Shown in pieces: positions 9,068-64,000 of a DNA stretch of 64,000 nt. Source of the stretch: Bacteroidales bacterium (GTDB taxonomy: Bacteria; Bacteroidota; Bacteroidia; Bacteroidales; UBA932); assembly GCA_017477335.1 (NCBI GenBank), contig JAFUVY010000015.1, forward strand, positions 19,791 to 83,790, written 5' to 3'. The notes below the pieces were generated by a model that saw nothing but the letters and a program-made list of their open reading frames with translations, was not told where the DNA came from and searched no databases. Each line of letters begins with the position of its first letter. Within the stretch, counting starts at the first letter, position 1. Made by a program: the position numbers and the translations under genes.

Positions 9068-9118
9068 AAATTTGGTGAATAATTATTGATTTGAGTTTAC
9101 CGTCAACAATAACGGGGA

Positions 9119-9149
9119 CAAATTTAGTACTTTTTTAATACTTACGCAA
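9119..9149 (-). promoter_or_regulatory. Bacteroidota-type promoter for the TonB receptor cluster
   Basis: On the minus strand TAAATTTG (9119-9126) matches the -7 consensus and TTG (9147-9149) lies 20 bases upstream within a T-rich run. It leaves a leader of roughly 45 bases before the TonB receptor start codon. Confidence 0.6.
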
Positions 9150-49379: not shown

Positions 49380-49786
49380 GCCTTGGTGGTGGAATGGTAG
49401 ACACGAGGGACTTAGACACGTTCTTTGAAATAATTATTTGTAAGAGACAAAAGTTAAGACTATACATAAATGGCAATAATGTGTCCCAATTGCCATGCCC
49501 TTACAAGTAATTATCGAGGAAGAGCACAATTGAGTGCACTCTCTGAAAAGAGAGATGTAGAATGTCGTAAATTCAAGGAAACCATAACGGGTAAAGCCGA
49601 TGGCAATCTTGAGCCAAGCCTCTGAAAGGAGGAAGGTGCAGAGACTAGACACGACACACCTAAAGAGCATAGCTCCACGGTGAAGGAATAGTCCAGACCA
49701 CAAACAGAAATGGTGGCGAAAGCCATAGTGGTAAGAAAATCCCTTGGCCCGAAACGGCCGTGCGGGTTCGATTCCCGCCCGAGGCA
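49380..49786 (+). tRNA. tRNA-Leu(UAA), interrupted by a group I intron
   Basis: The 5' exon is 49380-49413 and the 3' exon 49736-49786. Joined, they give an 85-nt class II tRNA: acceptor GCCTTGG pairs with CCGAGGC (one G-U) and discriminator A; D-stem GTG/CAC; anticodon stem AGGGA/TCCCT; loop C-T-T-A-A-A-A with anticodon TAA; long variable arm around GGCC-CGAAAC-GGCC; T-arm GCGGG-TTCGATT-CCCGC. CCA is not encoded. The long variable arm and A73 fit leucine. The intron sits after the first anticodon base (U34), the same place as in cyanobacterial and plastid trnL(UAA). Splicing is needed for a working tRNA. Confidence 0.93.
49414..49735 (+). ncRNA. Group I intron in tRNA-Leu(UAA)
   Basis: The 322-nt insert begins after the U of the anticodon and ends in G, the expected last base. 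The conserved core is clear: P element AATTCAAGGAAACC (49570-49583), Q element AATCTTGAGCCAAGCC (49605-49620), R element GTGCAGAGACTA (49636-49647) and S element AAGGAATAGTCC (49683-49694). GACTA in R pairs with TAGTC in S to make P7. A hairpin ATGGCAAT/ATTGCCAT (49470-49496) holds GTGTCCC in its loop, which can pair with the exon GGGAC-UU around a U-G pair at the 5' splice site, so it may be the guide sequence. The core resembles the plastid/cyanobacterial trnL intron (IC3 group). There is no open frame for a homing endonuclease. Confidence 0.92.
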
Positions 49787-49793
49787 CAAATTT

Positions 49794-49964: not shown

Positions 49965-50621
49965 ATGGCGTATTGGTATGACATATTCTCTCCGCTTTCG
50001 AAGGAGATTATAAAGGACGATGAAAGGCTCAATCGGACAAACCGTGTTATCGCAGTCATCGTCTTCCTTGTCACCGTCGTCATTCTTGTGCTCACATTTG
50101 TCAGCGATTCGGCCTCCCTGACCGACGGCATCAACTATCCTTTCCATGTGTTTTTTGTCAGCCTGGCAAAGGTGGCGCTATACCTGATAGGATACGTTGC
50201 CGTTTGCTGGGCAGTCCGCACCATCGCACATATTCTCACTCCAAAGGGAGCGCCCGTTCAGGTGCAGGAAGAAACTGCCATCCGACCGCTTGAAAAGCTC
50301 CTCGTCCCCAGCGAAAAGAGCATAAAAGACGTCATTATTGATAAATCCATGGTGTTTCTCAACGACTATCATGACGGGAAAGCCGTTGCCTGTCTCTTTG
50401 AAGCCCTGCAAGAAAGGCATTTTATCGAGGGTGACAATCAGACTGCCTTTTTCAATGCCGCCAAAGCGACCTTCCCGGATTCCATAACAATCAATCTCAG
50501 GGCATTCCAGATGGCTTACAGCACACTCTCAGAGGATCTGTTCGAAGGGAAAGCCATGAAAACGGTCGATAAGATGAGGGATGTTTTGGACGAACTTTTG
50601 AACCAAATCCCTGCAGAATAA
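49965..50621 (+). CDS. Two-helix membrane protein of unknown function
   Basis: The 218-residue protein has two membrane helices (about 27-48 and 63-88) near the N-terminus and a soluble helical domain (about 110-218). No domain is recognised. It stands alone between the tRNA terminator and the mobilisation genes with its own promoter and a terminator behind it, so it is an independent unit, possibly the first gene of the element. Codon use and composition do not look damaged. Confidence 0.75.
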   Translation: MAYWYDIFSPLSKEIIKDDERLNRTNRVIAVIVFLVTVVILVLTFVSDSASLTDGINYPFHVFFVSLAKVALYLIGYVAVCWAVRTIAHILTPKGAPVQVQEETAIRPLEKLLVPSEKSIKDVIIDKSMVFLNDYHDGKAVACLFEALQERHFIEGDNQTAFFNAAKATFPDSITINLRAFQMAYSTLSEDLFEGKAMKTVDKMRDVLDELLNQIPAE

Positions 50622-50625
50622 TTTG

Positions 50626-50658
50626 CGCGCAATTTGCGCGTTGCAATCCGCAATTTAA
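50626..50658. repeat. Short GCGC-centred repeats
   Basis: AATTTGCGCG occurs twice in 21 bases, overlapping the palindrome TTGCGCGCAA, and a related CCGCAATTT follows. This cluster lies between the membrane protein gene and the excisionase-like gene and could be an operator or a DNA-bending/excision site. No function is shown. Confidence 0.35.
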
Positions 50659-50675
50659 CCCACTTTATTTTTGCG

Positions 50676-50710
50676 CCATCACCCAGGTCGGGTGGTGGCT
50701 TTTTCGTTTT
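50676..50710 (+). terminator. Terminator or attenuator before the HTH gene
   Basis: CCATCACCC (50676-50684) and GGGTGGTGG (50690-50698) pair with one G-U, followed by CTTTTTCGTTTT. A TATTTTTG promoter-like box (50666-50673) lies directly in front, so the hairpin may terminate the upstream gene or, if that box is used, act in a leader. Confidence 0.65.
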
Positions 50711-50764
50711 GTACCGGCCGGACCGAAAGCCTGGATAAAGACCGGTTGATAAAACTATAACGCC

Positions 50765-51079
50765 ATGTGTGAAGATTTATTGAGGCTGTTGGAAAACGGC
50801 GAAACCTCCCGGATTACCATCCAGATAACCGGGGAAGAACTGATGAGTCTCATCCGGGAAACCGCGAAAGAACTCAGCGAATTATCCAGAACGAAAAGTA
50901 AGGGGGATGAGGATTACTTGCCAAAGAAAGAGGTAATGGCAATCCTCGGAGTTTGCGACACCACTCTTTGGCTATGGGCAAAGAACAATTACTTGAAACC
51001 CGCCAAGGCCGGGCGTAAGGTGATGTACCGCAAATCAGATGTCCTGCGCCTGCTTGAAACGAAGGAGGACCGTGTATGA
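50765..51079 (+). CDS. Helix-turn-helix protein, excisionase-like
   Basis: The 104-residue protein has a helical N-terminal part (about 1-50) and a MerR/excisionase-type HTH of the HTH_17 kind (about 55-98: YLPKKEVMAILGVCDTTLWLW, then the wing VMYRKSDVLRLL; both shown only in part). Such proteins commonly precede mobilisation genes in Bacteroides elements and act as excision or regulatory factors. It is 156 bases upstream of the MobC-like gene, separated by the oriT-like palindromes. Confidence 0.8.
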   Translation: MCEDLLRLLENGETSRITIQITGEELMSLIRETAKELSELSRTKSKGDEDYLPKKEVMAILGVCDTTLWLWAKNNYLKPAKAGRKVMYRKSDVLRLLETKEDRV

Positions 51080-51090
51080 GGGGCTGACTA

Positions 51091-51144
51091 TCCCTTCGTA
51101 TGAAGGGTAGCGAGGTTATGTTTCGGTAAACCGAAACCACCTCG
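51091..51144. other. oriT-like region with nested palindromes
   Basis: Two hairpins lie just upstream of the mobilisation genes: CCCTTC-GTAT-GAAGGG (51092-51107) and a longer one, CGAGGT ... TTTCGGT-AA-ACCGAAA-CC-ACCTCG (51111-51144). Their position next to mobC and the relaxase is typical of a transfer origin. The nic site cannot be read from sequence alone. The last 18 bases also occur at the integrase stop codon. Confidence 0.5.
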
Positions 51145-51235
51145 CAGCCTGCTCCCGGTGGTCGCAGACTGACCGCTGCCGCGCAGGCCATCCCATGACG
51201 ATGAGAAAGAAAAAGATGAAAAGAAGAATGCAACC

Positions 51236-51601
51236 ATGAAAACAAAAAAGAATAAGGGCGGCCGCCCGAAGGTAAGGGAAACGCGCAGGAAGCAATTCCG
51301 CGTCTCCATAGCCCTTGACATCATCGACAAGCAGCGGCTGGATTACAACATCAAAAAGTCAGGACTTCGCAGGGCCGATTACCTGCGTGAGGCCATCTTT
51401 GACGGCGTCATCCGAGAGGCTCTGACGCAGGAGGAGACACACCTCATCCGCCAGACGTACAAACTGGGCCAACTGCTAGCCCTGCTCTTCACGCAAGGGC
51501 GCCTGAATAAAGACGTCAACGCCAAGGCGGAATTCGCCAAGGCAATTGCCGCCATCAATGAAATCAGCGAATACTTCTTAACCAAAATCTCCAGAAAATG
51601 A
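51236..51601 (+). CDS. MobC-like mobilisation protein
   Basis: The 121-residue basic protein begins with a GRPKVRETRRKQFRVSIAL stretch that resembles a ribbon-helix-helix DNA-binding domain, followed by helical residues including GLRRADYLREAIF and a C-terminal helix. This is the pattern of MobC/relaxosome accessory proteins, which melt or bend oriT for the relaxase. The relaxase start overlaps its stop by four bases (ATGA), implying coupled synthesis. Confidence 0.85.
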   Translation: MKTKKNKGGRPKVRETRRKQFRVSIALDIIDKQRLDYNIKKSGLRRADYLREAIFDGVIREALTQEETHLIRQTYKLGQLLALLFTQGRLNKDVNAKAEFAKAIAAINEISEYFLTKISRK

Positions 51602-52548
51602 TCGCGAAACTCGGAAAAGGCGCGGGCTTCGGCGGCTGCGCCAAATATGATCTGGATCAGAACCATAGGAACAACAAGGATGCACGCCTGCTTGCCGCGG
51701 AAGGCGTCCCGCTCAAGGTAAACCCGGACGGCAGCATAAGCGTCGATGCCCGGGATATCGGCAGGGCTTTCCGCGCCCAGGCGTTGGCCCTGAACCCTGA
51801 CATCAAACAACCTGTCGGCAGGGCGATGCTGGCATTCAACCCCAAAGATACTCCACGCCTCACAGATGAATACATGGTGAAGATCGCCCGGGAGTATATG
51901 GAACGGATGGGCATCATTAACACGCAGTACACCATCGTTCGGCATAGCGAGAAAGAGCACCAGCATGTGCACATCATCTACAATCGTGTGGACAACGACG
52001 GAAAACTCATCAGCGACAGCAACAACTATTACCGGAGTGCCGATATCTGCAAGGGCATCACCCTCAGGGAGGGCCTGGCGATGGGCGAAAGCAAGACGCA
52101 GTCCCGGTCCATCCCCAACGACCCGGAAGAGCGGCTGCGATATGAGATGGCCAAAACTGTCAACAAATGCATCAGCACCGTCAACAGTCTGAAGGGGCTG
52201 CAGATATCCACCGCCCGACATGGAATTACCACGACCATCAAGACCAACCCTAACACCGGAAGCCCCAACGGCATCAGTTTCACGGCCAAGGACGAAAATG
52301 GAACGCCTCATACCTTCAAAGGTTCGTCCCTCGACCGCAGCCTCTCCATCGGCAATATCATGAAAGCCATTTACGGAGAGGACTATGCCCAGACGCAGGC
52401 GACAACGCTGGAAACACAGTCCCATAAAGAAACCCACGGAAGAGGTGCCGATGTCGCCTCCGGCATCGCCGAAATGTTCGGCGAGCGTTCGCGCCGGGAT
52501 GAAGATGAACAAATCGGCCAGAAGAAAGGCCGGGGAATGCATATGTAA
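51598..52548 (+). CDS. MobA/VirD2-type relaxase
   Basis: The 316-residue protein matches the relaxase/mobilisation nuclease family: MIAKLGKGAGFGGCAKYDL at the start, and the three-His metal site HSEKEHQHVHIIYNRVD (HxxxHxHVH type) at about 118-134. The family Tyr nucleophile is most likely one of the Tyr near the N-terminus. It nicks oriT and leads the strand into a recipient through a host conjugation pore, since no transfer genes are present here. The C-terminal region is low-complexity and basic. Confidence 0.9.
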   Translation: MIAKLGKGAGFGGCAKYDLDQNHRNNKDARLLAAEGVPLKVNPDGSISVDARDIGRAFRAQALALNPDIKQPVGRAMLAFNPKDTPRLTDEYMVKIAREYMERMGIINTQYTIVRHSEKEHQHVHIIYNRVDNDGKLISDSNNYYRSADICKGITLREGLAMGESKTQSRSIPNDPEERLRYEMAKTVNKCISTVNSLKGLQISTARHGITTTIKTNPNTGSPNGISFTAKDENGTPHTFKGSSLDRSLSIGNIMKAIYGEDYAQTQATTLETQSHKETHGRGADVASGIAEMFGERSRRDEDEQIGQKKGRGMHM

Positions 52549-52569
52549 TAACCTTAAATACAAAGTATT

Positions 52570-52971
52570 ATGTCGAAAACTAAAGAAATGACCGATGTCG
52601 AGTTCAAGGAAATCGTCATCGGCGAATACGGTCCCAACATTGAAAAGACGCTTAAGCAGGCGGAAGACAACAAGGCCAGGATTATTGCAATAGTCAATGG
52701 CTATAATCAGCAAGTGGAGTATTTGAACCGTCTTTTGAAAGAACGCAAGACCACAGCCGAAGCTGTTCAGTCCCTGGAGAATGAAATCCGTTCAGTAAAT
52801 GCCTCAGTGCGGGATATCAAGTCCGAATTGCAGGAAGTCTCCGGTATCCTCAAGGGAAAGGATTTCAAGGAGCTCACCCGACAACGCACGGACACAGAGT
52901 GGCTTTGGCAGAAGCTTGCCATCTTCTTTATGGTTGCCTTCGGGGTTTCCTGCATCATTGGACTGTTTTAG
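52570..52971 (+). CDS. Coiled-coil membrane protein, mobilisation-linked
   Basis: The 133-residue protein is mostly helical, with a likely coiled coil (about 20-95) and one C-terminal membrane helix (LAIFFMVAFGVSCIIGLF, about 112-130). No family is recognised. It follows the relaxase by 21 bases on the same strand and is probably cotranscribed; similar small tail-anchored proteins accompany mob genes in Bacteroidota elements, but a function is not established. Confidence 0.7.
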   Translation: MSKTKEMTDVEFKEIVIGEYGPNIEKTLKQAEDNKARIIAIVNGYNQQVEYLNRLLKERKTTAEAVQSLENEIRSVNASVRDIKSELQEVSGILKGKDFKELTRQRTDTEWLWQKLAIFFMVAFGVSCIIGLF

Positions 52972-53057
52972 TAGCCGGCTCTGTGAACCATACACGATAA
53001 AAGGCAGATTCTTAGCGAGCACCAATAAAAGATAAACCTTATATGGTAGCAAGTCGC

Positions 53058-53088
53058 TTGGAATTCAGGGAAAAAACATGTACATTTG
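53058..53088 (+). promoter_or_regulatory. Promoter for the structured RNA region
   Basis: TTG (53058-53060) and TACATTTG (53081-53088) are 20 bases apart. The expected start of transcription, near 53095, lies just upstream of a series of nested inverted repeats. Confidence 0.6.
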
Positions 53089-53094
53089 TAAAGT

Positions 53095-53320
53095 TGCCCA
53101 AATGGCGACACGACATACTTAGAAAGCGTTTAGCGATTCCTTACAACTGAATCTGGACAATTCACTATGAACGGGATGAGTGCGACGCTTGCACTGGCTA
53201 TTTCCAGGGCTCATGCCCTTGCTATAGCAGAAAGTGTGAGCATTTCCATTCTTATTCGTTCATAGGCCGTCCAGAGCCGAGTTGTAGGATAAGAGCTAAG
53301 GTGGCCCGCACTTTCTTTTT
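53095..53320 (+). ncRNA. Putative structured RNA (leader or independent sRNA)
   Basis: This region has no good reading frame but many nested complements. Going inward: GAAAG (53122-53126) with CTTTC (53311-53315); TTAGC (53030+100: 53130-53134) with GCTAA (53295-53299); CTTACAACT (53040+100: 53140-53148) with AGTTGTAGG (53280-53288, one G-U); TCTGGAC (53152-53158) with GTCCAGA (53269-53275); CTATGAACG (53165-53173) with CGTTCATAG (53257-53265). Small hairpins AGTGC/GCACT (53179-53195) and AGGGC/GCCCT (53206-53219) sit in the centre. A run of Ts follows the outer stem. This is far more pairing than random sequence shows. It lies 53 bases before the next gene, so it may regulate that gene or be a separate RNA. 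Confidence 0.55.
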
Positions 53321-53372
53321 GTACTTATATTTTAAATCTCGGTCTGGGCTATGCCGGGATGGCAAAATACTT

Positions 53373-54293
53373 ATGGCGAATCGTGTCCCAAAATTACTAT
53401 CAACAGTAATTCTCATGTTCGTATCTATCATGGCCTCTGCGCAAGTTCAGGTGGTCATATGGACTAATCAAAACCTCCATGGAACGATAAAGGTCTACTA
53501 CAACAATAGGTACGCCGGAACTATTACGAAGTATTATTCGTCAGCGCCGGGACCCGGAGCAGCCGGGTGTGTCACTCTTACCATTTCCGGTAATGGGAAT
53601 ACATTTTATGGAGAAGCCCAAGACGGGACCCGATGGTATAGCGAAAAGATGACGTTACATTCCGGTAACTATTATACGATTCGTCTTTATAGTAGTGGAG
53701 CAACTTCTTCTCAGAACAATAGAACTACTTCATATAACAGGACCGGCGGTTCAAGTTCTGGCTATGGGTCTGGATATAGCAATTCAAACGAAAGCGCTGC
53801 ATCTAGAATTGGAGGCCAAATTGGATCAGGGATAGCAAACACTCTCGGTAGTGCCGCAATGCACGCTTCAACAATAAGTATGGAGGGGTACCCGAACCTG
53901 CAGGTGCAAATGGGCTATTCTTCTATGGCAGGGGAATTTGTTGGTGTCGGAACCGATCTGGGCGGATTGGGAGGCGCGTACTTCCAAGGTGCAATATACA
54001 AGAATCTGCTTGCTAAAGATAAAACGAAAGGGCTCGACGCTTGGGCATTGAAAGTTGGTTTTTACGGCGGCAATGAGAAGAATACTTTCAGGTTTAATAT
54101 TTCTCTACCTTACATTTATCGCCTACCCAAAAAGATGGCCGTTGGTATAGAATTGGAGTACGCCCGATATTTCACATCCCGATTAGGCGTGCTTGGAGGT
54201 GTTGGCTTCCATGGATATGATAAAGAGAACCATAAAAGTGGTTTTTTGTTTGATGCAAACATCTGTCTTGTATATAAGATCTTAAGCAATTGA
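53373..54293 (+). CDS. Exported protein of unknown function
   Basis: The 306-residue protein has a signal peptide (MANRVPKLLSTVILMFVSIM to ASAQ). I start at 53373; the frame is open 72 bases further, but that would include the structured RNA tail. The mature part has an N-terminal beta region (about 25-105), a Ser/Asn/Gly-rich linker (about 110-150) and a C-terminal region with repeated aromatic strands (about 180-306) that could be a small beta-barrel or beta-sandwich. No family recognised. It begins a same-strand block of four secreted or lipoprotein genes. Confidence 0.75.
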   Translation: MANRVPKLLSTVILMFVSIMASAQVQVVIWTNQNLHGTIKVYYNNRYAGTITKYYSSAPGPGAAGCVTLTISGNGNTFYGEAQDGTRWYSEKMTLHSGNYYTIRLYSSGATSSQNNRTTSYNRTGGSSSGYGSGYSNSNESAASRIGGQIGSGIANTLGSAAMHASTISMEGYPNLQVQMGYSSMAGEFVGVGTDLGGLGGAYFQGAIYKNLLAKDKTKGLDAWALKVGFYGGNEKNTFRFNISLPYIYRLPKKMAVGIELEYARYFTSRLGVLGGVGFHGYDKENHKSGFLFDANICLVYKILSN

Positions 54294-54297
54294 CAAT

Positions 54298-55782
54298 ATG
54301 GTACATTTTCGAGCAACAAGAGTTATAGTTATCGTGATATGCTTATGTCGGTGCTTGACAGGAGGTTTTGCGCAAGCACCTGTGCATTCCATAGAAGTCG
54401 GGTATATCGATAATTTCAACCGCGGTGACCTCGTTATTATTGATTCTCACTACATTGAGTACTACCTGTACAATTCTAAAAATCAACTTCAGGGAGATAA
54501 ACGTTCCTTCGCGCTTACATGGTCCCCGGTTGATATAGAGAACAATCAATACAAACCCGGGCTTCTCGCCCCAGGAACAGCAATTGCTGAAATAAATGGT
54601 ATCCCCACTAAGAGTATGAGCATTGAACGCTTTTACTCGATAATGGATGAAAAAGATACGTTCTCGCTGGGAGTTGTAGAACATAGGACAGGACTTGTCA
54701 AGACAGTTTATCTTGAAAAACGCAGCCCGATTCAATCTGACGTAGTAAGAGAATGGCTTCCTACCAATATTCAGAGTTATCCAGGATCTCGAAACTGGGA
54801 TATCTACCCACAATCGTATAATAGTTTCTATGGGGGACTGATATCTGTTTCAAAGAAAGAAGCGAGGCAGATTATCTGCGATGAAACAGATATGTGGATA
54901 GAAGAGTATGTAGACGATTCGTTTGATTTCGGCCTTTGTCGGACATATTCTGTAGAGCATCCGGATAGTGATGATGAACAGATCTTCTGGTACTATCTAC
55001 CGATGCCGGATATGATTAGGGTCCAAGGAAATGCCGATTTGCGTTTTTCTGTTGTAAACAAGGGCGCTGCGCCCTATCAAGAAACCCAGAACTACGCTAC
55101 CATTACGAAATACGTTGTGTCATTGGAAATAGTCGCAAAGAATAGGGAAGATGCCGTGGTGTGGAAAATGACAGGGACTTACAACACTGCTAACAGCACC
55201 AGATCTTCTTGGGATTACAGGCCGCTTTGCGAGTGGGCTTGTATTCCTCCAAACGACAGGTCCGTCGTAATTAGAAGAAGTTATATAAAGCGTTGTGGAA
55301 TTATACAGGACGAATCAACGCCCTCAGTCATAGCTTATGTTGAGCCGGGGTCAAGAGCCGAGAAGGCAGGCTTCCAGCCTGGAGATATATTGGTAAAAGC
55401 AGAAGCCGAGGCTAGTTATGAAAAAGCAGACCGTAGTTGGGGGTTAAGAAACGGTCATGGTGATGGAAAGAGTATTAAAATTAAAGTTAATACTTTCCCC
55501 TATGGCTTCTTTGATGACACTACTGCACAATGGGTGCAATCGGATGAGTTCCTTCCGTATCTTGACATTGATGGAATGGAATACCCATATGCTTTGTCTG
55601 TTTGGTTAAATAGTCAGAGGTTCCAGGCCTCCGTTCTCCCTTGGGGGTGTGCCCCAGGGCAGAAAAGTGCCTTTCTAGACTGGCATGTCACTGTAAAAAG
55701 AAACAATCGTAACGTAAAACTGATTCTTCCGCGTGCGCTTAACGACGGATATTTAGTTGTATTAACCAGCTATATACCATGA
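54298..55782 (+). CDS. Secreted PDZ-domain protein
   Basis: The 494-residue protein has a signal peptide (about 1-27, ending GFAQA). A PDZ-like segment is visible near 70-140 (PGTAIAEINGIPTKSMSIER) and a clearer one near 335-400 (YVEPGSRAEKAGFQPGDILV). PDZ domains bind C-terminal peptides, usually in protease or scaffold proteins; no protease catalytic motif is seen. It starts 4 bases after the previous stop and overlaps the next gene by four bases, so the block is one operon. Confidence 0.78.
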   Translation: MVHFRATRVIVIVICLCRCLTGGFAQAPVHSIEVGYIDNFNRGDLVIIDSHYIEYYLYNSKNQLQGDKRSFALTWSPVDIENNQYKPGLLAPGTAIAEINGIPTKSMSIERFYSIMDEKDTFSLGVVEHRTGLVKTVYLEKRSPIQSDVVREWLPTNIQSYPGSRNWDIYPQSYNSFYGGLISVSKKEARQIICDETDMWIEEYVDDSFDFGLCRTYSVEHPDSDDEQIFWYYLPMPDMIRVQGNADLRFSVVNKGAAPYQETQNYATITKYVVSLEIVAKNREDAVVWKMTGTYNTANSTRSSWDYRPLCEWACIPPNDRSVVIRRSYIKRCGIIQDESTPSVIAYVEPGSRAEKAGFQPGDILVKAEAEASYEKADRSWGLRNGHGDGKSIKIKVNTFPYGFFDDTTAQWVQSDEFLPYLDIDGMEYPYALSVWLNSQRFQASVLPWGCAPGQKSAFLDWHVTVKRNNRNVKLILPRALNDGYLVVLTSYIP

Positions 55783-57602
55783 GACAGACTGTAATAGCTT
55801 TGTTTACTGTTTCTATACTGAGCATCTGTCTTTCTTGTAAGAAGGAAGAGGTCATCGAAGAAACGGTAGTTGTTGATGAGATTGCGCAATGGCATATAAC
55901 CCTCGCTGCTAACGCAAAAGAGATGACGTGGTATGATCCATATATAATAGCCAGAAACGGTCATGAAATGTCGGCTCTGTTCCACGACCAAGAGCAGCCG
56001 GGAATGACAGTAATGCTATATGTCAATGCGTGTGAGCGGCTGCAGATACTTCTTGCGGCTACGGATAACAGTGTTATGGTAATGCCGCTAAACTATACAA
56101 CAGATCCAGATGGGAATATTGGACCGGCCATAGTTTTTGACTGCAATGATAAGTTTATGACACTCTCAAGCGGGTATATTTCAGGGGACAACGGGGCTTT
56201 TATCGTTACGGGATCTGTTCCCATGGAAAACACTCAAGTTCAGACCAAAGGGAACCTTGATCCTTGGAATCGCTCGATTATGGATAGTTTCGCCGAGATA
56301 TACAATGATTCTTTCGCTGGCGAAACAATGGAAAAATGGGCCAATCAGCAAGATTTCTTTACCGGCCTTGGAACATATACCCGCTACTTTTTACGTTTTG
56401 CCACCGCAGCAGGGACCGTGTCGCTTTATGAGAATGTTGACAGGGACGAACAACAGAACGCCGCAGACGAATACTATGAGTTTGTAATGAAAGATATGCT
56501 GTTGAAAATAGTTCTCTCTCCTATTCAAGCTCTTCCGGCATCAAATGCTTTATCAACAATGGCTCAACTATTTGCAGAAGAATTATGCGAGGCGTATGGT
56601 TCACAGATCTCTAAAGAAAAGGCAGAAAGTAAAACGACAGAGTGGACAACCATGTCCAGGGCCCTGAGCGAAAGTATGCGCCAGGCTCAAGTACTAAAAA
56701 CAGACAACGCCATTCCCTTTAAAGTTAGTGTCGATATCAGTGATATTGAGGAGACTTCTGCCATGATAAAAGGAGTAGCAGAATATGTGCCGGGAGTCAA
56801 CACTGTGGACATGACAGTTATTGAGAAGGGGTTTTCTGTAACGAGTAAAACGCAGTCTTGGACCATAACTTCGGACGATTTGACTTCCGTAAAGTTAGCG
56901 CTGGAACCTTCAACGCTTTATACAGTAAGGGCTTACGTGAAGACTCTGCGGGGCACATGGGAAAGCAGCGCGAAATCTTTCTATACAAAAGGAATAAAGT
57001 TTGTGTGCTCGCCGGGAAGTTTTGTTTTTAATTACAACGGAGGCAAGGCCTCGACAACTGTTTCTGCAGGAGACGGGGTTAGTTGGCGAGTATTGAAGGG
57101 GCCTTCGTGGTGCACGCTGCAGTGCACGAGATCCGCTATCTATTTATCCGTAGAACAAGCTAAGAAGGACAGATCGGGAGAGATCATTATAGAAGTACAG
57201 AACCACTATGGCGACAAGGAGAAGTACAGTTTGAGCATTGCTCAAGAAGAGTCTTCCTGGGATAATACATCCTGGATTCTTAAAGGGGTGTATTATTGGG
57301 ATGGTTCACCAAGAGATGTCGAAGAGGAGGTAACATTCAAGACAATCAGTACGGGCTATACTGAACATGGTGACGGTTATACATATGATTATTTTGTAAA
57401 TGAATCCGGGCAGGCTATTATGGTATATACTGAACCACATCCTTATTACCCCGATTTAAAGATGGTAGAAACATATTACTTCACCAGAACCGGGGCCGAT
57501 TCTGCAATCGCGACTCTGTCCGGTTATTCTGAGAATCCCGGATTCAATAGCGTTGTTATTGTTAAAACAAGTGGAGAATTCACATGTACAAGAAAGAGAT
57601 AA
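55779..57602 (+). CDS. BACON-like surface lipoprotein
   Basis: The 607-residue protein has a lipoprotein signal (MRQTVIALFTVSILSICLSC, Cys 20). The N-terminal 300 residues are of unknown type; about 310-395 resembles a fibronectin-like region (PSTLYTVRAYVKTLRGTW), and about 400-490 matches a BACON domain (FVCSPGSFVFNYNGGKAS, then SIAQEE). The C-terminal part (about 495-607) is a small beta domain. Function unknown; the build is that of Bacteroidota surface lipoproteins. It overlaps the neighbouring genes by 4 and 19 bases. Confidence 0.75.
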   Translation: MRQTVIALFTVSILSICLSCKKEEVIEETVVVDEIAQWHITLAANAKEMTWYDPYIIARNGHEMSALFHDQEQPGMTVMLYVNACERLQILLAATDNSVMVMPLNYTTDPDGNIGPAIVFDCNDKFMTLSSGYISGDNGAFIVTGSVPMENTQVQTKGNLDPWNRSIMDSFAEIYNDSFAGETMEKWANQQDFFTGLGTYTRYFLRFATAAGTVSLYENVDRDEQQNAADEYYEFVMKDMLLKIVLSPIQALPASNALSTMAQLFAEELCEAYGSQISKEKAESKTTEWTTMSRALSESMRQAQVLKTDNAIPFKVSVDISDIEETSAMIKGVAEYVPGVNTVDMTVIEKGFSVTSKTQSWTITSDDLTSVKLALEPSTLYTVRAYVKTLRGTWESSAKSFYTKGIKFVCSPGSFVFNYNGGKASTTVSAGDGVSWRVLKGPSWCTLQCTRSAIYLSVEQAKKDRSGEIIIEVQNHYGDKEKYSLSIAQEESSWDNTSWILKGVYYWDGSPRDVEEEVTFKTISTGYTEHGDGYTYDYFVNESGQAIMVYTEPHPYYPDLKMVETYYFTRTGADSAIATLSGYSENPGFNSVVIVKTSGEFTCTRKR

Positions 57603-58300
57603 ACACGTTCATCCGGCTATTAACTGTAGGATTTATCCTCCCAGTGTTCTTCCTTTCATGCTCAGAAGAAAAACACGAGGATGCTCCGAAATATACTGTG
57701 ATTGACAAAGGTTTATATGGAGAGAATTCAGATGTTGATGAATTCAATCCGCTGAATGGTCACGATGCGGTCGACCTGGGACTAAGTGTTGACTGGGCTT
57801 CGAACAATCTCGGCGCAAATGTGCCAGAGGATTACGGTAATTACTATGCCTGGGGCGAGACTGAGACTAAAACAGAGTTCAGTTGGTCTACGTATTCCTT
57901 GTGGAAAAGCGATAATAAGAAATATGATGGAGAGGATAATCTTACAATTCTCGAAGATGAAGACGATGCCGCACATGTTCAGTGGGGTGGATTCTGGCGG
58001 ATGCCGACTTCTGAAGAATGGCAGGAGTTGATCGATAATTGCGCGTGGGAGGATTCTGAGCTTAACGGCGTATCAGGAATTCTGATATCCGCAACAAATG
58101 GCAATTCCATTTTTCTCCCCAAGGCCGGGCATAAATATGAGGGCGGCAGCTACTATAGAAGGGGACACGTATGCGATTATTGGGCATCTACTTTAGATGA
58201 ATCATCACCGAAAAAAGGATGTGCAATAAGGGACAACACAATACGGTCTGACTGGAGATACAATGGGTTCGCGATTAGAGCAGTCCTTGACCTTTTTTGA
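57584..58300 (+). CDS. Lipoprotein with Fibrobacter-type paralogous domain
   Basis: The 238-residue lipoprotein (lipobox near FLSC, about residue 26) has a domain (about 60-238) that starts HDAVDLGLSVDWASNNLGAN and continues with YYAWGETETK and WRMPTSEEWQELIDNC, ending in FAIRAVLDLF. This pattern is common in large paralogous families of Bacteroidota and Fibrobacter secreted proteins, often linked to adhesion or ligand binding. It overlaps the previous gene by 19 bases and converges on the defence-like operon. Confidence 0.8.
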   Translation: MYKKEINTFIRLLTVGFILPVFFLSCSEEKHEDAPKYTVIDKGLYGENSDVDEFNPLNGHDAVDLGLSVDWASNNLGANVPEDYGNYYAWGETETKTEFSWSTYSLWKSDNKKYDGEDNLTILEDEDDAAHVQWGGFWRMPTSEEWQELIDNCAWEDSELNGVSGILISATNGNSIFLPKAGHKYEGGSYYRRGHVCDYWASTLDESSPKKGCAIRDNTIRSDWRYNGFAIRAVLDLF

Positions 58301-58324
58301 GTAACAGCGTTATCTTCATCGGGA

Positions 58325-61174
58325 CTATCTATTCCATATGTCAAGCATATACTCCAACATTTCCGATGCAATCACAGGCGCCAGCACTCTCATCACATTA
58401 TCCTCCTCTTTGTAATGGCATCCCGCCAGATCAATGCTGCCAAACCAGAGTAAGGACCGGTCAATAACAGCTGCGCGGATAGGCTGCCGCTCTGTTTCGA
58501 CAAGTTTAACCCCAGCCTTGATAAAGTCTTCGTCCCGAGACGATGGCTTTCGGATAATAATACAACACTCCACTCCACGGACGCCCAGCGATTGCAGCGC
58601 CTTTGCCAAAGCCACCTTCATATACTGCACCGACTCGCAGGAAAGGACAACCGAGGACTGTGCCGCTTCAATATCGCCGACCAGAACCGGAAGGAAAGAT
58701 TCCGGACCAAGAACGATGTTCTGGGGAATCTGATCCAAAACTTCGGACACTTGCCTGGCATAGCCGATAGGTGCATAGCATTTCAGTCGCTTGCCGTACA
58801 TATTGGCAATGACCGGGACATGGATGTCGATATAATCGTAAACCCGTACTTCAGTCTTGCCCTCATAATCCCGATGGAGGCGTCCCGTGTATTGCTGGAC
58901 GATGTTCGGATAGGCAACCGGAAGGGCGATAAAGAGTGTGTCCAGTCTGGGATAATTGAAGCCCTCGCCCACATACTTTCCAGTAGCGATAACTATCAGA
59001 GGCTCCGTCTCAGGGATACTCTTGAGCCGCTCCATCGCCTGGCGCTTCTCCTTGGCCGATGCCGTGCCGACCAATTGAACCATGTTCCTGCAGTAGGGAG
59101 CCAGCATATCAGCTAGGATGGAGATATGGTCTTTCCGCTTGGTCAGGATAATCGGTGTCCGACCTTCGTTCAGCTCGGCCACAGCATCCTGCACAATCAT
59201 TTCATTTCTGGCGCGGTCATTGGCCAGGTCGCCAAGGTATTGCAGGGCGTTTCCTCTCTCCTCTATTGCCCGGAATGGCGTGAATCTCGGAATCAAAACT
59301 CTGCTAAATGATTGCCTGGACATCTGGGCCTTTGCGTCCGACTTATATCGAATGGGCCCGCACTGCATGAAAACGATGGGCGTCATCCCATCTTGACGGG
59401 TGGGAGTTGCCGAAAGCCCGTACACGTATCGAGCATTCACATACTTCAGCACACGCTCATAGCCGATGGCGCCAGAGTGATGGCATTCGTCGGCAATTAC
59501 CATCCCGTAGTTGCGGACAAATGGCTTGACAGCATCTTCCGACAAAGCGGAATTGAATACGGCGATATCTATGATTCCGTGTAATGTGTTCCGGCTTCCG
59601 TCCAGAAGGCCGACCGGAGAAAACGCCTTCCTTCTTCCCCGACCTTTCTTCTCTTCGATGGCAGGCCCTGGTTCATTGATAATCAAAAACTTCTCTATTT
59701 CTTCTTTCCACTGTTCCAGCAGCGCCTTGGAATGGACCAGTATCAGCGTATTTATCCTTCGCCTTGCAATCATTCCAATGGCAGCGACCGTTTTGCCGAA
59801 TGCGGTGGTCGCAGCAAGCACACCGTTATTGTATGAAAGCACTCTTTGGACTGCCGCCTCCTGCTCCGGCCGCAGTTCTCCGGAGAAAGAAACGTCGATT
59901 GTCCTTCCTGCGTTGGTTTGGTCATCCTCCTCCCATGCCGAGAAATTGCTCTGGAGCAGTTCTATCACGGCATCCTCGCATCCCCTTGGCAGTTTGAGGT
60001 AATCCTCTGTCATCTCATAACAACTCACAAGAGACGGTGTATGATAGAGCGGTTTTCTTGCATTGAGCAGTTCATAGTATTTGGGATTCCGGAAGGATGC
60101 CAGGCCTTTCAGGTGCCTGAGCACCTTTCCGGAAACGCTCATAATAGGCACATACAATCCATTCGCCCGGACAAGTTTGACAGGGCCACAAAAATCTTCA
60201 AATGAGATTCTGTCCGGTCTGGGTGTTTCCCATGGTTTTGTCTCAGATGACGAGGACAACTCTATCTGATATGCGTGATTTGCCAGAATAGTTTTAACCT
60301 CATATGCAGTGAGTTTCCGTACCGATGATAAAAACGACCATTGGTCCTTGAAAGCCATGAAGCCCTCATCCACAAATACACTGTTGTCGTTTTTCCGGGC
60401 CAAGCCCTGCAACGGGAGCGCAATCAGGTTCCCGAAGCCACCCTTTGGCAAAAAGTCTTGATTCGGCAAGAATCTGTCATAGGATTTCATATCCAGACGG
60501 ACATTGCTTTCCATGGCGGCACCGATGATAGCGAAGCCTAACCTCCGAGCGTCAGCAGCCAAGACTGGCTCTTCGAAGAATACCCATACATGGGCGCCCT
60601 TGCCGGATCGTGAGCGCTCGATGTACGCAGGGATACCCCAATCTTTACAGACGCGTACGTACGAAAGGATGTCGTCCTGGTAGCCATGCTCACAGTTCTT
60701 GTCATCGAAATCGGCGCACAAGAAGAGAACCGTATTGTCCTCAAGGATAGGATAAATGCCAATTACATCCTTCTCCCTTGCTTCTTTATCCAGATGCTGG
60801 CGAATGACCGATTCCTCAAGTGGGACAAACTCTCTGAAGGGGCAGCCCTCACACTTGTATTTATGCTCTACACATCCATCCGACCACCGATTCTTGCATA
60901 CTGGTTGATAGCCTGCTTTGCCCGCCTTGGAAACAAAGCGCTGAGCAAACACATCTTCCCGACCTCGGAACAAACCCCGGAAAATATCCAGCCGCCGTTG
61001 GATTTCTGTGTTCCTGTCCCGTTCCAGCCGCACAAGGCCACTACCATATTGTGGCGGCTCCGGTTCGCACAACAACGAAGAGCCAGAACCTTTCAGACGG
61101 GCATTCTCCTGCTCCAATTCACGGATACGCGTACGCAAGCGAATGTTTTCGGCCAGAAGTTCTTCGTAAGTCAT
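58325..61174 (-). CDS. Archaeo-eukaryotic primase / superfamily 2 helicase / PLD-like protein (TOTE type)
   Basis: The 949-residue protein starts with a coiled coil (about 1-30) and a Cys cluster (CKNRWSDGC, YKCEGC, about 92-112). Next is an archaeo-eukaryotic primase domain (about 120-290) with FLCADFDDKNC (metal acids), SRSGKGAHVW and LPKGGFGNLIALPLQG, as in TOTE conflict-system proteins. A helicase follows (about 430-800): ATTAFGKT, DECHH, SATPTR, GEGFNYPRLD and QYTGRLHR. The last 110 residues look PLD-like (RAAVIDRSLLWFGSIDL) but the His of the HKD motif is not seen. Its start overlaps the rloB stop by four bases. DNA-linked defence is the likely role. Confidence 0.85.
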   Translation of the reverse strand: MTYEELLAENIRLRTRIRELEQENARLKGSGSSLLCEPEPPQYGSGLVRLERDRNTEIQRRLDIFRGLFRGREDVFAQRFVSKAGKAGYQPVCKNRWSDGCVEHKYKCEGCPFREFVPLEESVIRQHLDKEAREKDVIGIYPILEDNTVLFLCADFDDKNCEHGYQDDILSYVRVCKDWGIPAYIERSRSGKGAHVWVFFEEPVLAADARRLGFAIIGAAMESNVRLDMKSYDRFLPNQDFLPKGGFGNLIALPLQGLARKNDNSVFVDEGFMAFKDQWSFLSSVRKLTAYEVKTILANHAYQIELSSSSETKPWETPRPDRISFEDFCGPVKLVRANGLYVPIMSVSGKVLRHLKGLASFRNPKYYELLNARKPLYHTPSLVSCYEMTEDYLKLPRGCEDAVIELLQSNFSAWEEDDQTNAGRTIDVSFSGELRPEQEAAVQRVLSYNNGVLAATTAFGKTVAAIGMIARRRINTLILVHSKALLEQWKEEIEKFLIINEPGPAIEEKKGRGRRKAFSPVGLLDGSRNTLHGIIDIAVFNSALSEDAVKPFVRNYGMVIADECHHSGAIGYERVLKYVNARYVYGLSATPTRQDGMTPIVFMQCGPIRYKSDAKAQMSRQSFSRVLIPRFTPFRAIEERGNALQYLGDLANDRARNEMIVQDAVAELNEGRTPIILTKRKDHISILADMLAPYCRNMVQLVGTASAKEKRQAMERLKSIPETEPLIVIATGKYVGEGFNYPRLDTLFIALPVAYPNIVQQYTGRLHRDYEGKTEVRVYDYIDIHVPVIANMYGKRLKCYAPIGYARQVSEVLDQIPQNIVLGPESFLPVLVGDIEAAQSSVVLSCESVQYMKVALAKALQSLGVRGVECCIIIRKPSSRDEDFIKAGVKLVETERQPIRAAVIDRSLLWFGSIDLAGCHYKEEDNVMRVLAPVIASEMLEYMLDIWNR

Positions 61175-61872
61175 TTAGACAAAGAATTAATCCGCTCAAT
61201 TACGTTTTCAGGATTGTTTAATTCATTAACCAGCCTGTAAACTGTAGTACAAGGTTTATGTGAAGCGTAGTCGTTACCTACATACCGGTTCTCCAGAGCT
61301 TTGGCGCTCTTAATGGCTTGCTCTTGGTTTCCAATTTCGGTTAGAAGTTGGTATATACCCTCATCGTTCTTTCTATACTCAAACTGCGGATACACTTTTC
61401 TTACTTCACGCGTGAGCATTTCTATGTACTGATGACGGCCAACCTGTGTGTCCAAATACTGAAAATGCAGGTAATACCAGAGTTCAAAGGCCTCATTGGA
61501 CCATGCGGGGTTAACTCCATTTGATTTGGCATACTCAATGGCTTCATTGAAATCCACGAAATCATCCTTGTCAAATACCGCCCAGGTAACGTCAAAGTGG
61601 ATGGGAGAAAGAGCGCGTCTCTTTATAGCAATATCTATCAAAGACTTTGTATTAGCCCCTTCTCCCTCGATTGTAGCTGTGAGGACTTGTGAGTTACGGC
61701 CCTTCACAAGCGCTTTGAAGTAATTGGGCTCTGTCTTTTCACCCTCGCAGACAATCAAATAGTTCAAGTGCGTGAGCCTGCTGGCCACCTTGATTTTCTT
61801 TTCAAGGTGGTGGGCCTTTCGCTCCCGCTCTCTCATCTCACGGATAGCCTTCCCTGATATAGCTTTTCCCAT
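61171..61872 (-). CDS. rloB: RloB-family protein
   Basis: The 233-residue protein contains LNYLIVCEGEKTEPNYFKAL, the RloB signature with a Toprim-like Glu, followed by NTKSLIDIAIKRR and WAVFDKDDFVDFNEAIEYA, which carries the acidic DxD of the Toprim fold. RloB proteins pair with AAA ATPases in defence modules such as AbiL and some restriction loci. Here the AAA gene ends just one base upstream and the primase-helicase gene starts within the rloB stop (ATGA). Probable nuclease component; activity is not proven. Confidence 0.88.
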   Translation of the reverse strand: MGKAISGKAIREMRERERKAHHLEKKIKVASRLTHLNYLIVCEGEKTEPNYFKALVKGRNSQVLTATIEGEGANTKSLIDIAIKRRALSPIHFDVTWAVFDKDDFVDFNEAIEYAKSNGVNPAWSNEAFELWYYLHFQYLDTQVGRHQYIEMLTREVRKVYPQFEYRKNDEGIYQLLTEIGNQEQAIKSAKALENRYVGNDYASHKPCTTVYRLVNELNNPENVIERINSLSK

Positions 61873-61873
61873 A

Positions 61874-63082
61874 CTAATCCTCCCAATCGTAATTCAGATA
61901 AGGGATGGCACCGTATTTCCCCTGGATGTAATCCTTTTCGAAACTGCGGTCATTACGCACCTTCACACCCTCAGCATCCTTGAATTCAGCAAGGCAATAA
62001 AGATCGGAAGATTCCGTTTTGTCTTTCTCAACGAACCAGATTTGGTCGCGCCGGAAAATCTTGGAACTGAGGAGGTTGGTATCATGCGTCGTAAATATCA
62101 ACTGGGCACCTTTAGGGTTTGTCTTGGCATTATTGAAGAGCCCGATTACATATTTTGTAATCAAAGGATGCATCGCCCGGTCAACTTCGTCAACAACCAA
62201 AGGAGATCCTTCCGAAAGTGCACTCATAATCAGATATATAATATCGAATAAACGGTTTGTACCTGCCGATTCGGATGTTTTCATTGAAAACCGCTTGCTT
62301 CCTATGACGTGCCCATTGTCATCATAGACATTATGCGTTGTCCAAGCCTTCACCGCCTTGGCTTCTTCAACTGAAGAGGGTATTTCAAAGGAAGTAAAGC
62401 CAAAGTCAAGATTCTTGAAAACCTTTATGACATCCTCGGAATAAACCTCCTTGGCGGCTTGAATGAATGCAAGTTGTGCATCAAACAGCTCCTGCGGATT
62501 ATCAGGAAGAGGCGGAATCACGATGCTATGGACCAGTTCTTTTGCAATCGGCCCATTAAAAGCATCGCACACTGAAAGAAATAGTGCGTTGCTACGCGTT
62601 CTTTCCTCCAAGCCTTTACCCTCATTGAATGATGACGAAACGCCTATATTTTCTCCTTCACGGATGAAAAGGTTTTTCTCGGAGCGGCTGCCAATCCTAT
62701 ACAGCCACTCCCGTACAATAATTTCTTGCGTACACTCAAATCCGTAGCGGTAGTGATTAAGCGAAGGTGTAATAACTTCAATTTCAAAGAAAGATGGCTC
62801 CTTTTCACTGCTCGCATCCAAAAGAAAAGGAATTACTGGCAAACGCGTAATGGAGCTACTGGAAGATGATTTATTTACCATAACCGATAGCGCTCCTAAT
62901 GCATGAAGAAAATTACTCTTCCCGCTGGAGTTTGCACCATACAGGGCAGCCGAAGGAAGAAGTTGAAGCCTTCCGACCTCAATAATCTGACTCCCGCTAT
63001 CTTTTATTGGCGCTGCCTCCAGGCTCAGTGTTTTCTTTTCCCGGAATGAAAGGTAGTTTCCGACAGTGAAATAAACAAGCAT
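61874..63082 (-). CDS. AAA-family ATPase (RloA/AbiLi-like)
   Basis: The 402-residue ATPase begins MLVYFTVGNYLSFREKKTLS and has Walker A GANSSGKSNF (about 49-58), Walker B PLVVDEVDRAMHP (about 305-317) and the H-loop FTTHDTNLL (about 343-351), the build of ABC-like OLD/SMC-type ATPases (AAA_15/AAA_21). With RloB it matches AbiL-like two-gene defence modules, where the ATPase senses the trigger and controls the Toprim partner. First gene of the three-gene operon; the 74-base gap to the integrase holds only a palindrome. Confidence 0.88.
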   Translation of the reverse strand: MLVYFTVGNYLSFREKKTLSLEAAPIKDSGSQIIEVGRLQLLPSAALYGANSSGKSNFLHALGALSVMVNKSSSSSSITRLPVIPFLLDASSEKEPSFFEIEVITPSLNHYRYGFECTQEIIVREWLYRIGSRSEKNLFIREGENIGVSSSFNEGKGLEERTRSNALFLSVCDAFNGPIAKELVHSIVIPPLPDNPQELFDAQLAFIQAAKEVYSEDVIKVFKNLDFGFTSFEIPSSVEEAKAVKAWTTHNVYDDNGHVIGSKRFSMKTSESAGTNRLFDIIYLIMSALSEGSPLVVDEVDRAMHPLITKYVIGLFNNAKTNPKGAQLIFTTHDTNLLSSKIFRRDQIWFVEKDKTESSDLYCLAEFKDAEGVKVRNDRSFEKDYIQGKYGAIPYLNYDWED

Positions 63083-63134
63083 AGCAAATTCTATTTTTCA
63101 CAAAGAACGCATTTTTTCACCAAATATGCAAATA

Positions 63135-63155
63135 TTTTGAGAAAATCTCTCAAAA
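63135..63155 (-). terminator. Palindrome after the integrase gene
   Basis: TTTTGAGA (63135-63142) and TCTCAAAA (63148-63155) form an 8-bp stem with a five-base loop directly after the integrase stop codon on the minus strand. It is AT-rich but lacks a clear U-run, so it is a weak terminator or a binding site. Confidence 0.35.
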
Positions 63156-63156
63156 C

Positions 63157-64000
63157 TTAAACCGAAACCACCTCGAACCTGTCATCTACTTTGTATTGCT
63201 CCTCCCCAAACGCCACGCACATCAGGGCAAATCGATCCCTGAGTTCCAGCATAGTATAGCGCTGGACGGCCTTGCTGCCCTGGCGGTGTAGTCCGGCGGC
63301 GTAGAGGTCCACCTGTACCTTGTTCATCAGGTCCACGTGGGTTTTACGGGCCAGCTTGCTGCTGCCCACTTCGTACAGGGGCAGGTATTTGTTCTCCCCG
63401 GCAGCTTCATCAAACACAGCCACCTTGCGGTCAATGCCTGCAACTTCCAGAAGTTGCTTAATCTTCTTGTTGTAGCCACTCTTCCCGGAAGGATAGCGAA
63501 GAATCGGCAGGTTGAAACCTGTTTTCTTGATGATTTCCAGTGCCGATTGCATTAGTGGCGTCTCCACCTCATGATTATCGCCCTGAGTGTTCTTGGTCTT
63601 CTGCGGCAGGTAATGGATGTAGGGAATCCCTTCCGGGGAGACGGCCACGTTGTCCATCGTCATCTTCTGGAAGTCTCCCACCCGGCAGCCAATGGCGCAA
63701 TGCAGGATGAACGCATCCTTGGTTTCTTTCAGCGATTCGGGCACGTCGGCGGCCATTACCGCCTTCAGTTCTTCCTTGCGCAGAAATACAGGGTCATCGT
63801 AAGTGGTTTTCATAACGGTCTTGCGCCGCTCTGAGCCAAGCTTTCGAAAAGGAGACTTGCCAATTTCATCCCGGTCCTCCAGCTCGCCGAAGAAGGTGCG
63901 CAGGAATTTCATTTCGCCGACCACCGTATTCCCCTTGCGGCGCTCTGTGGGGATATCGCGGTCTTTCATCTCCTTGTAGACGGCAGGATAGCGCTCCACA
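63157..64000 (-). CDS. Tyrosine recombinase (integrase), C-terminal part
   Basis: The visible part is about 281 residues and the frame is still open at the right edge, so the start codon and N-terminal region are missing. It contains a SAM-like DNA-binding segment (VVGEMKFLRTFFGEL) and the catalytic domain: Arg in IGCRVGDF, Lys in QKTKNTQGD, ARKTHVDLMN for the second Arg/His region, and LHRQGSKAVQRYT with the His and the nucleophile Tyr. The spacing is that of Bacteroidota mobile-element integrases, with a shorter than usual HLR region. It would insert the element, most likely at the tRNA-Leu site. Confidence 0.88.
   Translation of the reverse strand, partial: VERYPAVYKEMKDRDIPTERRKGNTVVGEMKFLRTFFGELEDRDEIGKSPFRKLGSERRKTVMKTTYDDPVFLRKEELKAVMAADVPESLKETKDAFILHCAIGCRVGDFQKMTMDNVAVSPEGIPYIHYLPQKTKNTQGDNHEVETPLMQSALEIIKKTGFNLPILRYPSGKSGYNKKIKQLLEVAGIDRKVAVFDEAAGENKYLPLYEVGSSKLARKTHVDLMNKVQVDLYAAGLHRQGSKAVQRYTMLELRDRFALMCVAFGEEQYKVDDRFEVVSV

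Follow-up and report, generated by a model that had tools for sequence, protein, structure and literature searches.

A tRNA-Leu(UAA) gene interrupted by a group I intron

The stretch of DNA analysed here, called the window throughout (64,000 nucleotides), comes from a genome of the genus Cryptobacteroides (Bacteroidales) and contains, at 49380-49787, a tRNA-Leu(UAA) gene interrupted after U34 by a group I intron (Table 1). An earlier sequence-only reading had described the break after U34, an insert ending in G and exons joining into a class II tRNA, and had expected a gene finder to miss the gene. Run without introns, ARAGORN indeed returned no tRNA in the whole window; run with introns, it called tRNA-Leu(taa) with a 322-nt intron, the joined exons folding as a class II tRNA-Leu(UAA). 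The gene end proposed in that reading, 49786, was one base short. Downstream of the tRNA, positions 49965-64000 appear to be an integrated mobilizable element, with a relaxase (51598-52548; Pfam Relaxase) and a tyrosine-recombinase-like frame on the reverse strand (63157-63999) that Pfam did not confirm.

Table 1. Features of the interrupted tRNA-Leu(UAA) gene in window coordinates
Feature	Position	Strand	Evidence or remark
tRNA-Leu(UAA) exon 1	49380..49413	+	Ends in U34; terminal bases ACUU are the P1 5' strand
Group I intron, 322 nt, last base G	49414..49735	+	ARAGORN; RF00028; covariance model R1, 192.3 bits
P1 loop	49430..49514	+	Long helix 49430-49444 / 49500-49514 around scar; endonuclease gene there in relatives
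HNH endonuclease frame remnant	49482..49625	+	CPNCHALTSNYRG... to UGA in the P6a loop, entering the ribozyme core
TTGAGTGC, including internal guide sequence GAGU	49530..49537	+	Pairs with exon ACUU, U.G at the splice site
P2 hairpin	49539..49554	+	CUCUCU-GAAA-AGAGAG
P3 5' strand, UGUCGU	49563..49568	+	3' strand 49651-49656; covariation
P4-P5	49573..49612	+	P4 49573-49578 / 49607-49612
P6 and P6a	49613..49637	+	
P7 5' strand, in R	49643..49647	+	3' strand UAGUC 49689-49693, in S
P8	49657..49682	+	
P9	49697..49732	+	Includes GAAA-capped P9b hairpin 49714-49725
tRNA-Leu(UAA) exon 2	49736..49787	+	ARAGORN

At its gathering threshold, Rfam missed the window intron. The group I covariance search suggested in the sequence-only reading did give a match to RF00028 when an E-value threshold was applied (47.9 bits, E 3e-11), below the gathering cut-off of 50, which is a curated threshold and no defining trait of group I introns; in a search of relatives this cut-off was passed in eight of 61 genomes, all eight in the window's genus. 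The minimum-energy fold of 49400-49745 reached -101.1 kcal/mol (z = -7.05; as low in none of 100 shuffles) and showed, unguided, recognisable P1, P2, P3, P4, P5, P6, P8 and P9. P7 pairs GACUA of R with UAGUC of S, as had been proposed, giving a group I core of P3-P8; P1 consists of exon ACUU and guide GAGU, with a U.G pair at the splice site, and GAAA loops cap P2 and P9b. GNRA loops on P2 and P9 are a feature of subgroup IC3, with which the window intron agrees in these loop sequences.

Among 28 distinct Cryptobacteroides-type introns, we observed pairs changed on both sides in P2, P3, P5, P5a, P6a, P8, P8a, P9 and P9b. Standard pairs made up 100% of P3, P4, P6, P7 and P8, with P4, P6 and P7 invariant, and lower shares of P8a (89.6%), P9 (87.9%) and P5 (83.0%); P1 is uninformative in this count, its 5' exon having been entered by hand, and P7, a pseudoknot, was checked through these pairing counts, without variation there. 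When 34 related introns (29 called trnL(UAA) by ARAGORN) were aligned, compensatory changes appeared at 41 of 50 consensus pairs, and the covariance model R1 built from this alignment gave the window intron, itself one of the 34 rows, the score listed in Table 1. Together with the ARAGORN call and the z score of the fold, these changes bear out the group I intron of the sequence-only reading.

That reading had also raised the matter of a second intact tRNA-Leu(UAA), and none was found. An uninterrupted trnL(UAA) junction (at most one mismatch) was seen in none of 12 intron-bearing genomes and once in each of six intronless controls; completeness is listed as 91-98% for seven of the 12, and the window's own genome is a 60% complete MAG, so that a second copy may lie outside its assembly. 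Because the 12 genomes hold no uninterrupted copy, splicing very probably works, and on its structure and this missing second copy we judge the window intron very probably capable of group I splicing. Should the split gene instead be a dead remnant, with UUA decoded by another tRNA, the degenerate endonuclease part in the window would be accounted for, but neither the intact exons, nor core helices conserved with compensatory changes, nor the 12 genomes devoid of an uninterrupted junction would be, and we consider this extremely improbable.

An endonuclease gene in the P1 loop and its decay

Introns in Cryptobacteroides measure 210-739 nt, that of Candidatus Cryptobacteroides onthequi (L251) having 733 nt, and the long ones contain an HNH frame in the P1 loop. 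Six copies were compared in 15 pairs; two of them (L014 and L017) are cut by a contig end, and L014 has no visible ATG start. The endonuclease proper differs at 0.65-1.04 of synonymous sites, which are near saturation, and at 0.06-0.25 of nonsynonymous sites, rates that indicate strong purifying selection in the sister species. Where the frame overlaps the ribozyme core the values are 0.05-0.31 and 0-0.13, with an unsteady ratio (0 to 1.55); low synonymous change is as expected there if the RNA is also constrained.

Sister copies thus hold an intact, selected HNH endonuclease, a frameshift or deletion breaks the copies L006, L010 and L018, and the window copy has no intact endonuclease: most of the gene is gone through at least two deletions, as judged by eye against the copy in genome G005, and what remains of the frame runs from 49482 to a UGA at 49623. 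Just before the endonuclease frame, the G005 copy has a Bacteroides-type promoter, TTTG-20-TATCTTTG, as judged by eye. In the P1 loop of L007, an inverted-repeat-like insertion replaces the endonuclease gene (by eye), and L221 has a similar translated stretch. The long trnL introns L190, L193, L228, L260, L095 and L178 have no forward frame of at least 90 aa and an opposite-strand frame of 154-198 aa, which in several of them looks endonuclease-like by eye.

We believe that the window intron belongs to a mobile group I intron inserted after U34 of the Cryptobacteroides tRNA-Leu(UAA), as a copy that can still splice but has lost its endonuclease, and give the whole explanation set out here a joint probability of about 0.86.

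Scattered presence and recent transfer

An intron occupies the trnL(UAA) site in 22 of 37 typed Cryptobacteroides genomes. On a host tree built from one protein, PBP2, 41 genomes divide into 20 with the window-type intron, two with a divergent intron (G021 and G140), 15 with an uninterrupted gene and four in which no gene was found. These states need 15 changes on the tree, against a mean of 13.6 for shuffled labels, and 178 of 200 shuffles need no more than that; its starred branches force 10-11 changes, and tree neighbours differ in intron state (G008/G015, G005/G138 and G017/G033). Intron presence among the 37 typed species fits this one-protein tree no better than chance. As for introns that spread by HNH homing, presence is scattered and intronless alleles exist at the same site.

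The G005 intron is 98.7% identical to the window intron over 309 nt, PBP2 of the two being only 79% identical, and the flanks show no alignment past about 30 nt upstream; judged by these comparisons, the pair is a recent transfer between species. Genome G138 (L383) has an intact intronless trnL at 1891-1977 and, 7 kb downstream, a decayed intron with an exon 2 relic (8878-9132; 62 bits with R1), and because of this relic its species was probably once intron-bearing.

Across the order, R1 matched three of 295 genomes: that of the window, a second with a match in trnL(UAA) and a third with a match in tRNA-Ile(UAU). This search used stricter filters, with which weak matches are lost. The same intron family lies inside the tRNA-Ile(UAU) of another Bacteroidales genome (G372; L388, 1461-1747). 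A match in G059, from another family of the order, was rejected as a coding chance match that overlaps no tRNA. The intron had been called unusual in its phylum, which holds for the rest of the order, where it is rare, and is wrong or incomplete for Cryptobacteroides itself and for the bacterial matches listed below, 24 of 119 of which have Bacteroidota titles.

A reading frame through the ribozyme core

A scan of viral contigs with an endonuclease profile yielded 91 relatives among 184 candidates, 80 of which were kept. Twelve of the 25 loci read (22 from endonuclease searches and three from an intron pattern scan) are tRNA-Leu(UAA) genes split by a 713-993-nt intron (nine distinct contigs; three share the same 964-nt intron), and the viral core is up to 91.7% identical to that of a Cryptobacteroides intron over 132 nt. 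PHROG matches near the L067 intron include a DNA polymerase and a helicase. Those near L391 and L396 are DNA methyltransferase, ferredoxin-like and DNA-binding families, and L393 has one weak lipoprotein match; with no hallmark genes among these neighbours, the viral status of the three contigs rests mainly on the collection.

L391, L396 and L393 each have one frame, 277-285 codons long, that begins near intron nt 87-91, runs through the guide, P2-P7 and P8, and ends with the S-element UAG. In L391, L393, L396, L398 and L399, R1 matched the core as two separate halves, the pattern that an insertion in P8 would give, whereas its match to the core was continuous in L397, L407 and L418. It found no core in L402, L403, L410 and L413, though their proteins share the domain order; the linkers of these proteins vary in length and lack the core-coded motif GNLEPSL..GAETRH. 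A description of them as intronless endonuclease relatives without a linker was rejected on this alignment. The C-terminal Zn-ribbon and helix-turn-helix, named by motifs with weak Pfam support, are kept in several phage copies and absent from the Cryptobacteroides copies.

Among testable introns (50 others were left out, and relatedness inflates the counts), the frame reaches the S element in five of six phage endonuclease introns, L397 being closed, and in seven of ten Cryptobacteroides introns whose endonuclease gene is complete or broken; these ten include one duplicate, and among the three closed is the G005 copy, 99% kin to that of the window. Of 20 Cryptobacteroides introns that lack the gene, 12 are open as far as the S element and eight, the window intron included, are closed; the open share is 5/57 for other bacterial introns, 1/15 for cyanobacterial introns and 0/63 for endonuclease-free phage introns. 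Given this higher open-frame share, the core that can be read in Cryptobacteroides seems to be a fossil left by the composite. We put at even odds, taken jointly, a scenario in which a ribozyme core would lie inside a protein gene, with the HNH domain in the P1 loop, P2-P7 and P8 as inter-domain linker, the Zn-ribbon/helix-turn-helix in the P8 loop and the stop at the S-element UAG; this composite would be phage-borne between gut Bacteroidota, and all Cryptobacteroides trnL introns of the clade would descend from it, many keeping the frame as a core fossil.

In the endonuclease tree, which is midpoint-rooted and has its relatives from the profile search of viral contigs, the eight Cryptobacteroides proteins group together as a clade (100/100), and their closest neighbours are four phage proteins (81/79). 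Since Cryptobacteroides forms one clade in both the endonuclease and the intron trees, one entry into the genus suffices. These relationships suggest that the window intron is a tRNA-Leu intron common to Cryptobacteroides and phages, and that transfer probably went from phage to bacterium. The reverse, in which phages acquired the intron from bacteria and had no role in its spread, would suit a family that is wide in bacteria too (at least 119 stretches), and the profile survey covered viral contigs alone; it is unlikely given the single Cryptobacteroides clade beside phage proteins under the midpoint root, and the C-terminal part that several phage copies keep and Cryptobacteroides lacks. The sequence-only reading had missed that the window intron derives, by deletion, from a mobile intron with an endonuclease that phages have too.

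Relatives in phages and bacteria and the intron tree

A pattern made of the intron 3' end and exon 2 picked out 118 stretches in viral contigs, a collection that may include provirus or host DNA, and 90 of them are ARAGORN-called tRNA-Leu(UAA) genes with an intron. The same pattern gave at least 119 stretches in bacterial genomes, 87 of those listed being clean calls. By their titles, the 119 listed matches are mostly Proteobacteria, then Bacteroidota, Acidobacteriota, few others and one cyanobacterium, with Thiotrichaceae and Thioploca loci among them. In the class of that cyanobacterium, RF00028 was found in 50 of 77 genomes, and 29 of 31 loci examined are trnL(UAA) introns by ARAGORN. Two huge phages also have trnL(UAA) introns. 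RF00028 at E 0.01 gave no match to the Lak, G021, G140 and huge-phage introns (one match in seven sources), which R1 did match, and two scans of the viral contigs returned no canonical cyanobacterial 3' end or core.

Some of these relatives are unusual in themselves. In the Prevotella phages Lak-B2 (L059, 1326-2069) and Lak-C1 (L060, 1335-2069), the tRNA-Leu(UAA) is apparently interrupted twice, by a group I intron in the D loop and by another after U34; R1 matches both in each phage (33.5-40 bits), RF00028 at E 0.01 matches neither, and ARAGORN reports one intron and anticodon GAG. A second type of intron, divergent from the first, occupies this trnL site in L037 (G021) and L384 (G140), and that of G021 groups with the Lak introns (SH-aLRT 99, long branches), a possible second link between phage and bacterium. 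An enterobacterial IncI-type plasmid carries a relative of the intron (L057, 1448-1668; 190 bits with R1) with an odd ARAGORN tRNA call, and blastn with the window's tRNA-intron stretch matches 1273 plasmid records, though not every one is of this kind.

We placed 253 introns in a tree without plastid rows, leaving out 18 of the 237 pattern stretches, for want of an intron boundary, together with 13 untrimmable long introns and one duplicate. The tree is poorly resolved, with 89 of 214 inner branches open and a program warning of long branches. The clade that contains the window intron has 210 rows (SH-aLRT 85): introns of phages, Proteobacteria and Bacteroidota, with one of the 27 cyanobacterial rows (Myxacorys). 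The other 26 lie outside together with 17 phage rows. The 29 Bacteroidales rows, of which L251 and L010 are one genome and others may be too, form one clade (SH-aLRT 100) whose sister is the viral-contig intron L067 (95).

The insertion point is that of the cyanobacterial trnL intron, as the sequence-only reading had said; membership of the window intron in the canonical cyanobacterial/plastid lineage, its other proposal, is not supported. An old, vertically inherited intron of that lineage, which the genus would have lost repeatedly and which otherwise only decayed, could explain the shared site, and loss probably occurs, as in G138 with its intronless gene and relic. Yet the position of the window outside 26 of 27 cyanobacterial introns, an intron divergence far below that of the hosts (pair G000/G005), purifying selection on the endonuclease and the occurrence in only two further genomes among 295 of the order make this very unlikely. 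Of the two origins that had been offered, transfer or a very old shared intron, the first is therefore involved and the second, in the form of an old cyanobacterial lineage, is not favoured.

Proposed mechanism

If the window intron is a mobile intron that has lost its endonuclease, its RNA would fold with P1 from exon ACUU and guide GAGU, a P3-P8 core and a terminal G, and guanosine attack followed by exon ligation, the standard group I route, would restore a tRNA reading UUA. The ancestral intron would have carried an HNH homing endonuclease with its gene in the P1 loop and the frame continuing into the ribozyme core; the enzyme would be expected to cut intronless trnL, upon which repair would copy the intron in. 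We infer homing from a selected HNH gene, scattered presence and recent transfer taken together. Spread between species, deletion of the endonuclease and loss of the whole intron would recur. Phages, whose tRNA-Leu(UAA) genes share the composite, would be the likeliest vehicles between cells, and this is the most tentative step of the mechanism.

Comparison with known introns

To our knowledge, accounts of the trnL(UAA) intron usually describe an old and quiet element without an endonuclease. Our data indicate that the same site hosts a mobile intron, with endonuclease decay, intron loss and recent transfer visible among sister species. Three rows of canonical cyanobacterial trnL introns share with the window the site after U34, a UUGAG-like guide region and a group I core. 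They differ in the S element (GAGAGUCCRAU or GAGGGUCCAAU, against AUAGUCCAGAC in the window) and in the 3' end (GAGAAUG, GAGGAUG or GAAGGUG, against GUAAG), and the canonical introns belong to a different clade; two long cyanobacterial trnL introns examined had no forward ORF of 90 aa. A title cited in PMC4476775 describes the plastid trnL intron as vertically transmitted, and a reference title in PMC3984707 argues for horizontal transfer of the intron in cyanobacteria.

Single points related to ours are in print, namely the Beggiatoaceae tRNA-Leu-TAA introns and the endonuclease and core overlap of the fMet intron, and searches of open-licence papers returned neither the combination described here nor any account of introns in phage trnL genes or in Cryptobacteroides. 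According to the 2014 review PMC3984707, all phage introns until then were in protein-coding genes despite the many phage tRNA genes, with which the 118 viral-contig stretches contrast, 90 of them being clean trnL(UAA) introns; PMC10580990 deals with a DNA polymerase intron. Beggiatoaceae and Thiomargarita resemble the window in having a non-cyanobacterial tRNA-Leu-TAA interrupted by putative group I introns, described in the excerpt of PMC4853749 without an endonuclease, mobility or a phage link.

Closer in build, the Synechocystis tRNA-fMet group I intron (Table 1 of PMC3073962) is also a bacterial tRNA intron with an endonuclease in P1, with a 61-nt intron overlap; it differs in the tRNA and in the nuclease family, PD-(D/E)-XK there and HNH here, and in some phages the frame described here spans the core. 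In the phage T4 td intron with I-TevI, treated under 'core creep' in the excerpt of PMC3073962, the endonuclease frame overlaps the ribozyme core, and the five overlaps tabulated there are 0-81 nt, whereas in the viral composite one frame opens in the P1 loop, crosses P2-P8 and extends to the S element. As coreless relatives, fused forms and truncated stages all exist, this core-spanning frame makes the question of how an endonuclease and an intron merge directly testable.
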